A model generated the notes under the pieces. It was not told where the DNA came from, did no database searches, and saw only the letters and a program-made list of their open reading frames with translations. Position numbers and translations under genes: made by a program. DNA of 64,000 nucleotides from Paenibacillus borealis (lineage in GTDB: Bacteria > Bacillota > Bacilli > Paenibacillales > Paenibacillaceae), in NCBI RefSeq assembly GCF_000758665.1, contig NZ_CP009285.1, positions 4,526,001 to 4,590,000 on the forward strand. Direction: 5' to 3'. Below, one piece after another: positions 901 through 6,554 of the stretch (position 1 is the first letter of the stretch; each line of letters opens with the position of its first letter).

Positions 901-934
901 AAAAAGCCCTCTCTACAAATTATTGCAAAGAGAG
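901..934 (-). terminator. Probable terminator of the helicase operon
   Basis: On the minus strand, CTCTCT and AGAGAG arms (909-914 and 929-934) form a short hairpin followed by GGGC and five U residues. It lies about 100 bases beyond the helicase stop codon. The stem is short, so this is a weak call. Confidence 0.4.
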
Positions 935-1035
935 CCTGCTGGACTATATAGTGCGTAGTTAGCCGTTTGCAGTGTAAAGTTGGCGGTGTGTATCTGGCAG
1001 CATGGATACTTCCGGCTACTTAGTGTGATTTGCAT

Positions 1036-3240
1036 TTACGGTGCAGGCGGCTGCTTCCACTGTTTAATTACGCTTAGCAATCCCGGTACATCCAGCCCGT
1101 CGAGCGAGAAAGCTTTGCGCAGCAGATCATGCGGGATGAATTCATCGTATTTGCCGAGGTAAGGTGCTTCATCCGGGCCAAGCAGCGCAATTGCATCCGT
1201 TGCAGCGGCGGTTTCGGCAATGATCTCTTCCTCCAGCGTCTCTGCATCCGCCTTACCGGCGACCACCATATAGTAAGGCTCCATCGGGACGACGGACCGC
1301 AGACCGAGCGGACCCTTCAGGTTATTCTTCAGCAGGCGCTCCAGCGTACGGAACTGGCGGCTGCCCGCCCACGGAAGGATGAACATGGAGTCTCCTCCGG
1401 CAGGCAGAACAGAACGCGTCAGCAATCCGCTCTCCTTGGCCAGTCTCCGTGCGCGCTCCAGTCTGGCGGCCGCGCTAGGTGCAAGATACGGATACAAGGC
1501 TGTCGATCCCAGCACTTCGCGGATCTTCGTCATGATCCGGGTATGGACATCCCCTCCGGCTCCAAGCCATAAGGTGTCCACCTTGCCGCGGGAGCCTTTG
1601 ACATAGACCGCCTTGTGGCGGTTGTCGACCTCTTCCACCTTCCACAGCTTGCCGGCCAGAGTGAAGCAGTAACCCGGTGGCGGCACTGTGGTAATTGAAC
1701 CGATCTCCTCGGTGCCGTTATAGACCACATGCTCTTCATCGTCTTTGAATACGGCATAGAAGCGGAAGTTGTTGACGATCTTCTCCCCCGCCATGCCGAT
1801 CAGAAGGCTGCCCTCATCCATCTTCTCAATATGGCCCATACCCTGCATGTATTCCATGAAGGCGTCATAATCGGCGGGATCGATACTGCGGAAGGAAGGC
1901 AGGCTCAGCACAGCCTCTTTCAGATCCTCCGGCTCAGCCTCCCCCATGCTCTTCAGGATGCTCATCGTCTGATGATACAGCAGCCCGACCGGCAGCTGGC
2001 GCACAACCAGCGGTTCCACCCATTTCTCGCGCACGTACAGCTCAATCACGGCAATGGCCCGCAGCAGCGTCCACGGCATCCGCGCAGGCAGCTGCGCCTC
2101 CTCGTCCTCCTCCTCGGGCGTGACGAAGATCATCTCGGAGGCTGCGTCCCCGCGCCTGCCCGAGCGGCCCAACCGCTGCACGAAGCTCGCGCAGCTGTAA
2201 GGCGCGCCCAGCTGCAGCACCCGCTCCAGCTCGCCCAGGTCAATCCCCAGCTCCAGCGTCAGCGTCGCTGCAGCTACAGCCGGCCCCGCACCCTGGCGGA
2301 GCGCGGCCTCCGTCTCTTCGCGCAGCATCGCGGAGATGCTTCCATGATGCACATGGAAGACATCCCGCTCGCCGCGCTTAGCGGCAATGCGCCGCATCTC
2401 CAGAATCGCCTCCTCGGCGTCGGTGCGGCTGTTCGTGAAGATCAAGGCCTTCTTCACATGCGTATGGTCATAGATGAAGCCGTAATAAGCCTGGCGTGCC
2501 CGCTCCAGGTGTTCGGCTTCCTCCTCATTCCGCGCATCCGGGAAAGAAAAGTGCTCCACGCTCAGGCGCAGCTTGCGCCCGCCTTGCGGCGCGCTGACCT
2601 CCACGCTCGCGCGCGTGCCTGCCGCCAGCCACTCCGTGACGGAAGCATAGTCGCTCAGCGTCGCGGAGAGGCCGATCCGCCGCGGATGACAGCCGGCCAT
2701 CCGCGAGATCCGGGCCAGCTGGCTCAGCACCTGAATGCCGCGGTCCGCGCCCATGAAGGCATGCACTTCATCGATCACGATGAAGCGCAGATCATGGAAT
2801 AGCGCCGGGATGGCATTCGGGCGGTTCATCAGCAGGCCTTCCAGCGATTCCGGTGTAATCTGCAGCACCCCGGAAGGGTTCTGCATGAGCTTCGTCTTAT
2901 CTGCCTGCGGCACATCGCCATGCCAGTGCCAGACCGGAATATTGCCTTCGCGGAGCAGATCATTTAACCGTGTGAACTGATCGTTGATCAGCGCCTTCAG
3001 CGGAGCGATATACAGGATACCTACGGATGCTGAGGGACGCTCATACAGTTCGGTAAGCGCAGGGAAGAACGCTGCCTCTGTCTTGCCCGAAGCGGTCCCG
3101 GAAGCAATAAGCAGATGATGCGGCGTGTCAAACAGCACCCGGCAGGCATCCACCTGGGCCTCACGCAGCGTATCCCAGCGGTTCTTATAGATGAATTCTT
3201 TGATGAACGGAGCCAGCCGGTAGAACGGGTTATCGCTCAT
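1036..3240 (-). CDS. SF2 DEAD/DEAH-box helicase, Lhr/BrxHI-like (third gene of TerB-ATPase-helicase operon)
   Basis: This 734-residue protein is a superfamily 2 nucleic-acid helicase. Visible motifs in order are the Walker A loop GTASGKT (48-54), DEVH (157-160), SAT (192-194), and motif VI QRLGRSGRRGD (355-365). The first 400 residues hold both RecA-like domains. The remaining 330 residues match the long C-terminal extension usual for Lhr-like helicases. The start ATG overlaps the stop of the upstream ATPase gene as ATGA, so the two are translationally coupled. The partners (a TerB_N/TerB_C protein and a BrxD-like ATPase) suggest a DNA-processing or phage-defence role, as BrxD and BrxHI work together in some BREX systems. 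That role is inference; no methylase, PglZ or nuclease gene is adjacent. Confidence 0.85.
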   Translation of the reverse strand: MSDNPFYRLAPFIKEFIYKNRWDTLREAQVDACRVLFDTPHHLLIASGTASGKTEAAFFPALTELYERPSASVGILYIAPLKALINDQFTRLNDLLREGNIPVWHWHGDVPQADKTKLMQNPSGVLQITPESLEGLLMNRPNAIPALFHDLRFIVIDEVHAFMGADRGIQVLSQLARISRMAGCHPRRIGLSATLSDYASVTEWLAAGTRASVEVSAPQGGRKLRLSVEHFSFPDARNEEEAEHLERARQAYYGFIYDHTHVKKALIFTNSRTDAEEAILEMRRIAAKRGERDVFHVHHGSISAMLREETEAALRQGAGPAVAAATLTLELGIDLGELERVLQLGAPYSCASFVQRLGRSGRRGDAASEMIFVTPEEEDEEAQLPARMPWTLLRAIAVIELYVREKWVEPLVVRQLPVGLLYHQTMSILKSMGEAEPEDLKEAVLSLPSFRSIDPADYDAFMEYMQGMGHIEKMDEGSLLIGMAGEKIVNNFRFYAVFKDDEEHVVYNGTEEIGSITTVPPPGYCFTLAGKLWKVEEVDNRHKAVYVKGSRGKVDTLWLGAGGDVHTRIMTKIREVLGSTALYPYLAPSAAARLERARRLAKESGLLTRSVLPAGGDSMFILPWAGSRQFRTLERLLKNNLKGPLGLRSVVPMEPYYMVVAGKADAETLEEEIIAETAAATDAIALLGPDEAPYLGKYDEFIPHDLLRKAFSLDGLDVPGLLSVIKQWKQPPAP

Positions 3241-4556
3241 AGGTCAAACTCCGCCAGGAAGCCGTCCAGTTCATTCTGCCCGGCCTCGGCAGGCCGCGGA
3301 GTCCGCTCCCCAACCAGCTTCTCGAACGACATATCCGGATGCTGGTTCAGCGTATGCAGCAGATCCATGAAATCGCGTACGACCTCACGCGCGGTAAGCA
3401 GCTCATCTGCACCCAGCCGGTTCACAGCCTCTTCCATGAAATGCACCAGCTGCTCCTGCGTCAGTCTGGCTTCATACCCGTAGTGCAGCGCGTGAATATC
3501 CCGCAGCTTCTGCAGCAGGATCAGAATTTCTTCGTGGGAGAGCATATCCAGCGCAATGATCGGTCCGGTGAAGTTGTTCAGGCCGGCACCGGCATACCGC
3601 CCGGCGACCAGCCTGGAACGCAGCGCCTCATAACTGAACAAACCGCGGCGGTGGTCTTCAACAAATTGCGGTGTGCCGCCGACGAAGATACCCAGCCGTT
3701 CTGCCTTGCCCTGCATCGTGTCGTTGAACATGGTCAGCAGCTTCTCGTAATTGCTCTGGCGGGAGATACTGTTCGTTATCTTGTAGAGATTGACTCCCTC
3801 GTCGATGAACAGCAGCAACCCCTTATAACCGATGGCTCCGGTGAATTCCGCCCACAGCTTCATATAGTCATACCAGTTGTCGTCGTCGATAATGACGCCG
3901 ACACCCAGCGCCTTGCGCGCTTCCGTACGAGTCGAGAACTCGCCTCGCAGCCAGCGCAGCGAATCCTGCTTCAGTGCGTCATCGGCCAGCTTATGCCCGT
4001 TCCAGTAAGAGGCCAGCACCTTCGCGAAGTCGAAGCCATGCACCAGCCCGCGCATCTCCGAGGCTACCGCATAGATCCGCTGTTCCACTTCTTCGCCAAG
4101 CTCCGGCGAATCAGGCCCGCAGCCCTTCTCCTGCATCACTGCCTGCTGAAGCGTCATAATCCACTTCTGCAGTATAATCTCAAGCGCGCCTCCATCGGGG
4201 CGCGTACGGGTCGACAGGTGGCTCATCAGCTCACGATAGGTGGCCAGCCCCTGCCCCTTCGTACCGACGAGCCGCCGCTCCGGCGACAGGTCGGCATCCG
4301 CGACCACAAAGTCGCGGTCCATTGCATAATTACGGATGATCTGCAGCAGGAAGCTTTTGCCGCTGCCGAATTTACCCGTAATTAACTTAAAGGCGGCTCC
4401 GCCCTCGGCGATATTATCCATATCGCGGAGAATGGCTTCTACCTCCGGCCGGCGGCCGACGGCAATATGTTCAAGACCGATACGCGGCACGACTCCCGCT
4501 GTCAGCGAGTTGACTAGAGCGGTGGTCATCCGCTTCGGTATTTTAAGTGGGTTCAT
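3237..4556 (-). CDS. BrxD-like P-loop ATPase (BREX ATP-binding domain family)
   Basis: This protein of 439 residues has the Walker A loop GKFGSGKS (61-68) and a Walker B strand LLLFIDE (247-253), followed by a GGTP sensor-like segment. The overall layout matches the ATP-binding family that includes BrxC/BrxD (DUF2791). I chose ATG 4554-4556 because AGAGGTG lies nine bases upstream; a GTG at 4568 overlapping the previous stop is also possible. It sits eight bases after the TerB gene and overlaps the helicase by four bases. The family is known to couple ATP hydrolysis to DNA-associated complexes. The exact job here is unknown and is inferred from its neighbours. Confidence 0.82.
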   Translation of the reverse strand: MNPLKIPKRMTTALVNSLTAGVVPRIGLEHIAVGRRPEVEAILRDMDNIAEGGAAFKLITGKFGSGKSFLLQIIRNYAMDRDFVVADADLSPERRLVGTKGQGLATYRELMSHLSTRTRPDGGALEIILQKWIMTLQQAVMQEKGCGPDSPELGEEVEQRIYAVASEMRGLVHGFDFAKVLASYWNGHKLADDALKQDSLRWLRGEFSTRTEARKALGVGVIIDDDNWYDYMKLWAEFTGAIGYKGLLLFIDEGVNLYKITNSISRQSNYEKLLTMFNDTMQGKAERLGIFVGGTPQFVEDHRRGLFSYEALRSRLVAGRYAGAGLNNFTGPIIALDMLSHEEILILLQKLRDIHALHYGYEARLTQEQLVHFMEEAVNRLGADELLTAREVVRDFMDLLHTLNQHPDMSFEKLVGERTPRPAEAGQNELDGFLAEFDL

Positions 4557-4564
4557 TCCTAATT

Positions 4565-6196
4565 TCACCTCTTTAAATAATGCAGCATGGAGATACTTTC
4601 TTCGGTCAGCTCTTCGCCATCGATGATGAGGTCCCCCAAACTGTCCATGGCAAGTTCATTAATCTCATCAAACAGCAGCTCTGCCATTGTTCCTCCGCCC
4701 GCTGCAAGCCGGTGCACCTTCGCCAGGCCGTCATCATCGGCCAGCGCAAGGACTACATCCCGCTGCAACGGACTCAGCTCAGAAGCGAAGAGCGTCCAGC
4801 TGTTCGCTTCGCTATCTATGATTGGCAGCAGGGAATTGGCTTGTCCCTGCACAGCAGGCTCTTCAACGATAGCCTTCTGCTTCTCTTGATCATTCTCCCC
4901 AGCCGCAGGCTCCTCAGTCCGGGCGTACACGTCAGCCACGGCACTTCCCGGCTCAGCTTCATCCGCGTCCTGATTCGCCGAATCCGTTTCATCCTCGTTC
5001 TCTGCTGCCTCTTCTACCGTAAGCAGCGACCGCACGACCTCAGAGTCATTCTCCAGCTGCTCCAGCTTCCGCTGGTCAATCACAACTGCCGGACCTTTCT
5101 CCTCCTGCTCCGCCTTGCGGAATTCACGCTGCAGGAACCGGGTCACCAGATCCTCCATGTCCGCGTCAACTTTGACATCCTTGAGCCGTCCGCGATAACC
5201 CATAAGCGCCCGCAGCTTGTTCTCGGTCAGCCGGAATAAGCGTGTAATCAGGCTGCGCAGCGGAGGCGATTTACTGATTCGTACGACGGGTACAAGAACA
5301 GAGTAGCCATAGAGGGAGATATCATATACTGCGCTGCGGAACAAATACCGCTCACGGACAACCGGCGGACCGGGCGGGAACATCGTGATCAGATTCGAGC
5401 CGTGCCTCCGCGCGACATACGCATCAATTAATGCCACAACTTGGGGAATATACTTGTCCGCAGCTGCTTTTCCTTCACCGGCATAGAACTTCGATTTGCT
5501 GATATCATAATCCGACATCACACTCAGCACCTCAATGCTTAGCTGCTCCGGAGCAGCAGTCAGGCAGCGGACAAGCTCAATTTCAGCCAAATCCCCGGCA
5601 AGACCGCGTGTACGGGCGACAATCTCCGAGAGGGGGATATCCAACTTATGCACGAAAGAGAAATCCGCAATCCATCCGCCAAGATATTGATCCAGACGTT
5701 TGTACTTGTCACGGTAGGCTTCCCATAGCAAGCCGAGCTGGCGGCAGCCATCCTGAGGCTCGTCCCAGCCCACACCGTTAATCAGCTCATAAATATGCAG
5801 AAAGATATACGAGAGATCGGTCTTCGGGTATCTCCCTTGCCGGACTTCATCCCGCCAGAAGAAATACCATCTGCTCTGCGCACCTGTCATATGGCCATAA
5901 GTCGGCCAATAGCTCTTAAAGGGGACAAATAAAGCCGCAGGCTCCTTATGATCCGCAAGCTCCCGGGCCCGCTGGACAAATTGGCTCTCCGTAGTGGTTA
6001 CCGGCTCCTGGGTCTCTTCCATATCCCATAACTGGAGCTGTACTGTGTTATATTGAGACGGCTTCTTGTTGCCCGGACCTGCCGGAGGCTTCGGTATAAC
6101 CGCTTCTGCGGAACTGCGCGGCGGAATCGCCATATTCTGCTCCGTGCTCTCCCAGACCAGCTCCGTGAAATGCAGGCCCTGCCTGTCTTTAGCCAT
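4565..6196 (-). CDS. TerB_N / TerB_C domain protein
   Basis: This protein of about 543 residues opens the operon. After a Pro-rich N-terminal stretch it shows a TerB_N-like segment with WYFFWRDEVRQGRYPKTDLS and YIFLHIYELINGVG. A charged Glu/Asp-rich linker follows (around 390-450). The last 75 residues (LSPLQRDVVLAL to the end) resemble TerB_C. These domains are known from tellurium-resistance-linked stress systems and are often encoded with ATPases and helicases, suggesting a scaffold for a DNA-acting complex. The start ATG 6194-6196 has GGAG eleven bases upstream; ATG 6211 lacks a ribosome-binding site. No metal-resistance genes are nearby, so a tellurite role is not supported here. Confidence 0.78.
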   Translation of the reverse strand: MAKDRQGLHFTELVWESTEQNMAIPPRSSAEAVIPKPPAGPGNKKPSQYNTVQLQLWDMEETQEPVTTTESQFVQRARELADHKEPAALFVPFKSYWPTYGHMTGAQSRWYFFWRDEVRQGRYPKTDLSYIFLHIYELINGVGWDEPQDGCRQLGLLWEAYRDKYKRLDQYLGGWIADFSFVHKLDIPLSEIVARTRGLAGDLAEIELVRCLTAAPEQLSIEVLSVMSDYDISKSKFYAGEGKAAADKYIPQVVALIDAYVARRHGSNLITMFPPGPPVVRERYLFRSAVYDISLYGYSVLVPVVRISKSPPLRSLITRLFRLTENKLRALMGYRGRLKDVKVDADMEDLVTRFLQREFRKAEQEEKGPAVVIDQRKLEQLENDSEVVRSLLTVEEAAENEDETDSANQDADEAEPGSAVADVYARTEEPAAGENDQEKQKAIVEEPAVQGQANSLLPIIDSEANSWTLFASELSPLQRDVVLALADDDGLAKVHRLAAGGGTMAELLFDEINELAMDSLGDLIIDGEELTEESISMLHYLKR

Positions 6197-6235
6197 ACTT
6201 ACCCGCTCCATTAGTGTGCCATTATAATTTCTAAC

Positions 6236-6241
6236 ATTATA
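6236..6241 (-). promoter_or_regulatory. Extended -10 promoter of the TerB-ATPase-helicase operon
   Basis: On the minus strand TGT directly precedes TATAAT, giving an extended -10 element about 40 bases upstream of the TerB start. A TTGCGT lies about 20 bases farther upstream as a poor -35. The operon is insulated from upstream transcription by two terminators. Confidence 0.5.
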
Positions 6242-6315
6242 ACATATGCCCTGTGCCGGCGACGCAACCGTCTCCAGCCCTGTACAAACGCATACTTTCT
6301 TATATTCTAAAAAAA

Positions 6316-6343
6316 GACCTTGAGAGACTGGCTCCTCAAGATC
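6316..6343 (-). terminator. Rho-independent terminator
   Basis: On the minus strand a 9-base-pair stem (GATCTTGAG with CTCAAGGTC) with a 10-base loop is followed by seven U residues. It is the second terminator after the MFS gene and separates it from the TerB operon. Confidence 0.7.
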
Positions 6344-6490
6344 CTAGATTAGAGTGTCTGTCACCGCATATTGCCGGATAATGAGAACGTTCGTTTGTGT
6401 CTTCATTAAGAATATACTATATTCACCCTATGGGCTGCAATAGCGGAGGCAGGATCGTGCAAGGTTCCCTGAATTTCAGCAGCATGCTAA

Positions 6491-6518
6491 AGGCCAGCCG
6501 GAAGGATCCGGCTGGCCT
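6491..6518 (-). terminator. Terminator of the MFS transporter gene
   Basis: AGGCCAGCCGG and CCGGCTGGCCT form an 11-base-pair stem, followed on the minus strand by three U residues. It lies about 40 bases after the transporter stop codon. Confidence 0.65.
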
Positions 6519-6554
6519 GATTGGAGTGTAGCTCCAGATGTATTCGGCTTCTGC

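Follow-up and report, generated by a model that had tools for sequence, protein, structure and literature searches.

A Shango operon that appears to be core in Paenibacillus and may serve in genome protection

A three-gene operon in Paenibacillus borealis

The subject of this analysis is a three-gene operon, sngABC, in a 64,000-nucleotide stretch of the Paenibacillus borealis genome (contig NZ_CP009285.1, positions 4,526,001 to 4,590,000), hereafter called the window. The host genome (G000) is 8.16 Mb long and is a single contig. All three genes lie on the minus strand. The first, sngA (4565..6211), encodes a 548-amino-acid protein with TerB_N and TerB_C domains; the second, sngB (3237..4568), encodes a BrxD-like AAA+ ATPase; and the third, sngC (1036..3240), encodes a 734-amino-acid superfamily 2 (SF2) helicase that resembles Lhr and BrxHI. 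A first-pass annotation, made from the sequence alone, had described these genes in this tight order, and the open reading frames (ORFs) and Pfam domains agree with it. The eight-base gap that it placed between sngA and sngB is obtained when sngB begins at the ATG at 4556 (439 amino acids) and not at the GTG at 4568 (443 amino acids). The ATG is favored as the likelier start because the alignments of most relatives begin only at residue 4 or 5 when counted from the GTG. The four-base overlap of sngB and sngC is also present.

Both domains of SngA score over their Pfam cut-offs (PF13208, TerB_N, 1.2e-34; PF15615, TerB_C, 5.1e-08). SngB matches PF10923 (BrxC_BrxD) at 1.5e-163, and SngC matches PF00270 (DEAD) at 5.6e-25 and PF00271 (Helicase_C) at 6.9e-15, with PF19306 (WH_Lhr) at 8.5e-04, under its cut-off. 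The motifs of SngC are intact (Walker A GKT, DExH, SAT, and motif VI QRxGRxGR), and its helicase motif residues are invariant in an alignment of 14 sequences. The Walker A and B residues of SngB are likewise invariant among 12 sequences. Both alignments mix Paenibacillus, proteobacterial, and archaeal copies, and that of SngB also includes other Bacillota. No nuclease domain was recognized by Pfam in SngA, SngB, or SngC.

Shango, of which Millman et al. 2022 is reportedly a source, is represented in PADLOC by models PDLC03958/03959/03960. SngA matches its profile at 356 bits (1.2e-106), and no other PADLOC family was matched. The SngB profile is matched by the ATPase at 678 bits (2e-204), with BrxD second at 160 bits (3.6e-47), and the SngC profile is matched by the helicase at 797 bits (7.6e-240), with BrxHI second at 403 bits (4.7e-121). 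The genes are adjacent in the Shango order A-B-C. Of 80 loci fetched, 59 named ones yielded all three genes, and the same arrangement is seen at 52 of these. Because the PADLOC profiles place the proteins as SngA, SngB, and SngC, the operon is, by profile match, Shango (SngABC), an already described anti-phage system, and neither a new system nor a BREX fragment. The earlier proposal of a poorly described anti-phage or DNA-repair unit therefore stands for the parts, their order, and their anti-phage kind, but not for the novelty.

In the excerpted text of PMC10250203, Shango is a three-gene system composed of a TerB-like protein, an ATPase, and a DEAD/DEAH helicase. According to the same excerpt, Shango of P. 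aeruginosa PA14 lowers the plating of many, but not all, of the phages tested by 10- to 100-fold on solid medium and also protects liquid cultures, and the system was found by others in E. coli.

Distribution of the operon

Matches to SngA and SngB were found in all 100 Paenibacillus genomes examined, and matches to SngC in 99. The sole SngC miss is a draft genome of P. forsythiae (G021) whose contig ends 1.2 kb into SngB. Judged by the places listed, the genes are adjacent on one contig throughout the genus, the exceptions being the contig breaks of G021 and G089. As a rule there is one copy per genome; doubled rows represent split frames and not second copies. Reading frames split in at least two pieces are seen for SngB in G028, G043, G052, G063, and G079 and for SngA in G043, G061, and G217. 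Several of these genomes are drafts, and the splits may reflect assembly error or decay. As a yardstick, PglZ of BREX is found in 6 of the same 100 genomes. Conservation in all relatives, which the first-pass annotation had set against its own idea of a defense role, is observed in these 100 genomes.

Beyond the genus, SngA and SngB occur in the same 90 of 197 genomes sampled from the family (8 of 19 genera). The order sample yields SngB in 55 of 149 genomes, all of the window's family (4 of 38 genera), and the phylum sample in 25 of 398, of which 18 are outside the family. The operon of P. phytohabitans (L051) is very similar, with SngB 98%, SngC 99%, and SngA 90% identical to the window proteins. 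No paper joining Shango with Paenibacillus in substance was found in the literature searched.

Two unusual placements were seen. In P. cellulositrophicus KACC 16577 (L120), the replicon that carries the core-type operon is 897 kb long and is annotated as a plasmid. In G104 and G134 (L188, L189) the operon is split, SngA being about 15 kb from SngBC with nine ORFs between the parts and all three genes open; by eye, the intervening ORFs are sugar-transport and glucosidase-like.

Inheritance and constraint

For 31 of the 37 genomes compared, the closest relative picked by RpoB comes from the same genus as the one picked by SngB+SngC. Mantel rank correlations with RpoB distances are modest (0.47 and 0.49) and were reached by none of 2000 permutations. 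The RpoB tree was a quick one, from which the G111 row (wrong reading frame, very long branch) was left out. Because of this agreement and the distance correlations, the operon seems to have been inherited mainly vertically and transferred in some cases (G184, G201, G106, and others). The sampled genomes of g2, g3, g4, g5, g10, g12, and g17 fall into one supported group of the RpoB tree, where only G184 has the core type.

Ratios of nonsynonymous to synonymous substitution rates (dN/dS) were computed between the window genes and those of six relatives. The values are 0.012–0.078 for SngC, 0.029–0.091 for SngB, and 0.105–0.152 for SngA (computable for five of the six), so that the SngA ratio is about two to thirteen times that of SngC. 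Purifying selection on SngB and SngC is strong.

Promoter, terminators, and LexA-like sites

Direct reading of the sequence places an extended −10 element, TGTTATAAT (6236..6244, minus strand), 33 bases upstream of the SngA start. The operon's own extended −10 promoter, as reported in the first pass, is thus present by sequence; a consensus promoter scan listed nothing at this position. Of the two upstream terminators claimed, one is a terminator-like hairpin at 6314..6345 (minus strand) that is listed by the hairpin scan and probably ends the transcript of the neighboring major facilitator superfamily (MFS) gene; the second, at about 6493–6519, is visible by eye, has only a short T run, and is absent from the scan list. 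A further terminator-like hairpin (904..937, minus strand) follows the sngC stop codon by about 100 bases. Terminator-like sites are no commoner than chance in the region scanned (7 found versus 5.6 expected).

The 300 bases upstream of SngA were searched for LexA-like sites with a position weight matrix (PWM) built from 17 distinct lexA sites that had been picked with an assumed consensus. As a positive control, 30 of 30 lexA genes have a site with at most two mismatches, and the lexA sites of 30 genomes score 13.7–18.8. The window contains a LexA/SOS-box-like site, CAAACGAACGTTCT (6384..6397, minus strand), with a score of 14.8; its half-sites, CAAAC/GTTCT, also occur in several lexA sites.

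Sites scoring at least 11 are present upstream of SngA at 14 of 35 core loci; for the other genes at these loci the count is 9 of 268. With a threshold of 8, they are present in 11 of 20 representatives (SngC less than 88% identical) compared with 20 of 268 background genes, and the strict core RAACN4GTTY is found at 9 of the 35 core loci and 8 of the 268 other genes. The Fisher value for sites with at most two mismatches, 2.5e-10, is overstated, since the rows are related, the consensus was assumed, and the matrix derives from consensus-picked sites. Letter shuffles in a first pass (36 loci) gave at most one mismatch in 1 of 720 cases and at most two in 34 of 720. The three divergent family copies described below have 3–5 mismatches at best, and 12 of 56 copies from other phyla have a site with at most two. 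Given this relatedness and the assumed consensus, we read the enrichment as suggestive, short of proof, and as a lead toward possible DNA-damage control.

Gene neighborhood

At 12 of 21 genus loci, the window included, the MFS gene precedes SngA either immediately or within two ORFs. Beyond it are mostly DUF1836 and CNNM genes; at other loci the neighbors differ. Flanking proteins were scanned with PADLOC at a threshold of 1e-10, covering 81 of 114 from the genus, 77 of 100 from the family, and 70 of 101 from other phyla; those left out were mainly near-duplicates and very long proteins. The genus proteins match 6 families with one member each, the family proteins match 5 families, and those of other phyla match 14, mostly CARF/Csx1 models with one member each. 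The background, the 47 other genes of the window, matches 6 families. No clear excess of defense genes around the core operon is therefore evident from PADLOC matches of flanking proteins relative to the window background.

The first-pass annotation had counted a housekeeping locus, conserved with constant neighbors and apart from defense islands, against a defense role. Conservation in the 100 genomes and the lack of a clear island agree with such a locus, but the neighbors are constant only in closer Paenibacillus. The 47 other genes of the window also include a QueC gene and one related to AlkZ (PF24741).

Mobile and variant Shango loci

SngB copies of the family are mostly at least 71% identical to the window protein. 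Three divergent copies (G172, G224, and G237) are 44–47% identical, and G172 carries both the core type and the divergent type. The tree of SngB sequences unites the other family copies and a P. peoriae plasmid copy in one clade (support 100/98). The three divergent copies sit far from it beside another Bacillota genome, and the plasmid copies from proteobacteria and archaea cluster in a different place together with a further Bacillota genome. Identity to the window SngB is ∼38–45% for the listed plasmid copies from outside Paenibacillus and 42–63% for other Bacillota copies. For the 40 proteins that flank the three divergent copies, a Pfam scan gave 38 families, and the 25 shown include one integrase-core (rve) protein. 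These three copies may be mobile.

SngB relatives (E ≤ 1e-20) are present in 684 of 72,556 plasmid records, of which 682 are less than 60% identical, and 541 of the 684 plasmids are predicted to be conjugative. Among 50,697 phage records there was no SngB match. Viral contigs were searched with six exact peptide patterns taken from the window protein, an approach that reaches close relatives only, and none were found.

Several variant loci were encountered. The P. peoriae plasmid (L121) carries a Shango of the core lineage (SngB 65% identical); downstream of it a phospholipase D-like protein is encoded, and a Dcm-type methyltransferase gene is close by. On a Sulfitobacter faviae plasmid (L123), a PD-(D/E)XK nuclease protein and a UvrD-type helicase directly follow SngABC, and this pair was found only there among the neighborhoods looked at. 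Neighbors of clostridial Shango that had been guessed from gene sizes to be AddAB-like are in fact MMPL and GLUG proteins. In Saccharibacillus and others (L086, L087, L088, L084, L083, L067, L121, and L199), SngA has an N-terminal extension of 350–900 amino acids before TerB_N. No Pfam family was found in the six extensions scanned, and their profile had no relative among PDB sequences; a degenerate SNF2 domain that had been guessed by eye in these long N-termini is unsupported by either source.

At 11 loci of Nostoc and other cyanobacteria (L215, L220, L221, L225, L226, L230, L235, L247, L218, L238, and L269), the gene preceding SngB encodes an apparent membrane segment, a coiled coil, and TerB_C, and no TerB_N. 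SngC was not found in the fetched stretch at 8 of these loci and follows SngB in L218, L238, and L269. This arrangement is possibly a variant of Shango.

Structural models and a possible mechanism

The AlphaFold2 model of SngA has a mean predicted local distance difference test (pLDDT) score of 79.9. Its folded parts are nearly all helical, and two low-confidence stretches (residues 1–68 and 402–464) are probably disordered. The SngB model has a mean pLDDT of 86.8, and its Foldseek matches are generic AAA+ proteins (HslU, TnsC, ORC) with template modeling (TM) scores by query of at most 0.40 among the 50 shown. Profiles of SngA and SngB found no relative among PDB sequences better than E 0.03.

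BrxD and BrxHI form a linked dyad in which BrxD may load or activate BrxHI, as stated in the excerpted text of PMC12839542. By homology with this pair, SngB, as an ORC/Cdc6-like AAA+ ATPase, would assemble on DNA and load or activate SngC, the Lhr-type SF2 helicase. SngA would act as an adaptor whose TerB_C domain docks on SngB, with the faster-evolving remainder of the protein recognizing a trigger. TerB_C is the only part common to SngA and the cyanobacterial protein that precedes SngB, which suggests that it is the part that meets SngB. The assembled machine would watch for abnormal DNA, such as phage replication forms and stalled or damaged forks, and would remodel it by unwinding or translocation. 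The remodeled DNA might then be handed to host nucleases, since none of the three proteins has a recognized nuclease. Loading by SngB, the role of SngA as adaptor, and a double function in phage defense and tolerance of DNA damage are all inferences. No paper on the mechanism of Shango was found in the literature searched.

Competing explanations

The explanation that we prefer, and whose chances we regard as about even, is that the Shango operon is, now or always, core in Paenibacillus and several sister genera and acts as a DNA-surveillance ATPase-helicase machine kept as genome protection. In its favor are the gene content and catalytic motifs, the presence throughout the genus sample (against 6 of 100 genomes for PglZ), the strong constraint, the mostly vertical inheritance with one supported clade of core copies, the lack of a clear defense island, and the LexA-like sites. 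The finding that SngABC are all open in two genomes despite a split of ∼15 kb also supports this explanation. Several observations weigh against it. The LexA-like site of the window is 140 bases upstream of the −10 element with a terminator-like hairpin between them, and 21 of the 35 core loci are without a site scoring at least 11. At least three genomes of otherwise positive genera (G252, G351, and G178) have no match, so the operon seems dispensable in some sister species. RpoB and SngB+SngC trees disagree in 6 of 37 genomes, and when the P. peoriae plasmid copy is excluded, holding the core rows together in a single clade gives p 0.151; strict vertical descent is therefore neither shown nor rejected. 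The position of the operon is not fixed across the genus. The neighboring MFS gene has a dN/dS of 0.037–0.074, and SngB and SngC are not constrained more strongly than this; they are therefore held about as firmly as an ordinary neighbor, and SngA less so. A defense excess is also not clear around copies from other phyla in a small sample, and because these Shango flanks look alike, the missing island does not alone set the core copies apart. Foldseek with the SngA model found no PDB structural match at E ≤ 0.001. Finally, the Shango experiments in the excerpted text of PMC10250203 demonstrate anti-phage activity, not repair.

The operon could instead be an ordinary anti-phage Shango without any housekeeping role, whose immunity alone is so useful or cheap that it is never lost. 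We hold this to be a real possibility, if one on the unlikely side. Shango defends P. aeruginosa and was found by others in E. coli (PMC10250203, excerpted text), the dN/dS of SngA is two to thirteen times that of SngC, as an arms-race sensor might show, and there are losses in sister lineages, with the divergent type instead in two g6 genomes. Immunity alone is harder to reconcile with presence in 100 of 100 genomes when PglZ of BREX is in 6 of the same 100, with the lack of a clear defense-gene excess nearby, and with the absence of matches in the 50,697 phage records and of close relatives in viral contigs. At the other extreme, the genes might serve Paenibacillus purely in housekeeping DNA repair, without a part in immunity, and the Shango label would then mark homology only. 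The operon is core, single-copy, strongly constrained, and accompanied by LexA-like sites, and the solved structures closest to SngC are those of Lhr and YprA. Lhr/YprA-type helicases include repair helicases. Nevertheless, we find this decidedly unlikely given the PADLOC scores of SngC (797 bits) and SngB (678 bits), an architecture equal to that of plasmid-borne Shango, and absence from 11 of the 19 family genera sampled and 373 of the 398 phylum genomes, which would be odd for basic repair.

Two further alternatives are suggested by the domains themselves. A scaffold cluster for tellurite or metal stress would account for TerB_N and TerB_C, but it is very improbable because no ter operon shows up in the Pfam families listed for 47 other genes of the window (25 commonest of 49) and the partners are DNA-acting enzymes by family. 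The same families fit the earlier statement that tellurium genes are not adjacent. The least probable proposal by far, a leftover BrxD-BrxHI piece of type 2 BREX, draws on BrxD and BrxHI being the second-best profiles of SngB and SngC. It is refuted by gene content: the genome has no PglZ and one BrxC/D-family gene, the BrxD cut-off is missed (164 versus 350 bits), and the Sng profiles lead clearly for both proteins (678 versus 160 bits and 797 versus 403 bits).

If the preferred explanation of a core DNA-surveillance operon is taken one step further, Paenibacillus Shango would be a LexA-linked core genome-maintenance machine, and mobile anti-phage Shango would be the travelling form of the same machine. 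This extension is speculative, and we think it rather unlikely. If it is true, an immune system and a DNA-damage response would be one apparatus with two uses, either domesticated defense or mobilized repair. By the comparisons made here, a known system appears to be in an unusual evolutionary state, as a fixed core operon in Paenibacillus. Paenibacillus, as a genus in which the operon is never lost, would be a natural host for probing its everyday function beyond phage plaques, and profile-based counts of "defense systems" can take in core genes.

Comparison with known systems

The window operon shares with Shango the same three proteins, the A-B-C order, the catalytic motifs, and the best PADLOC profile for all three. 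It differs in that the window type is in every genus genome examined, is mostly vertically inherited, and is without a clear defense island; the defense-island or mobile location that is usual for Shango, as an association and not as a definition, is not seen here.

The BrxD-BrxHI dyad of type 2 BREX likewise has a homologous ATPase and helicase side by side (PMC12839542, excerpted text). Unlike the dyad, the window operon has a TerB_N/TerB_C partner, and SngB scores below the BrxD equivalog cut-off. The first-pass annotation had noted that no PglZ or BrxC is adjacent, and this extends to the whole genome: PglZ (PF08665) has no match in G000, and the single gene of the BrxC/D family (PF10923) is best matched by the SngB profile, so that no BrxC stands alongside a BrxD. 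BREX is therefore absent by these two measures.

SngC also resembles the Lhr and YprA (MrfA) helicases, its best PDB sequence matches being 5v9x and 7lhl, which we take to be Lhr structures, and 6znp (YprA). It differs from them in scoring far under the related NCBIfam cut-offs (e.g., TIGR04121, 215 versus 850 bits) and in adjoining an AAA+ ATPase and a TerB protein. In the excerpted text of PMC12278908, SngC, BrxHI, DruE, and DpdJ are placed in one possible clade of defense helicases.

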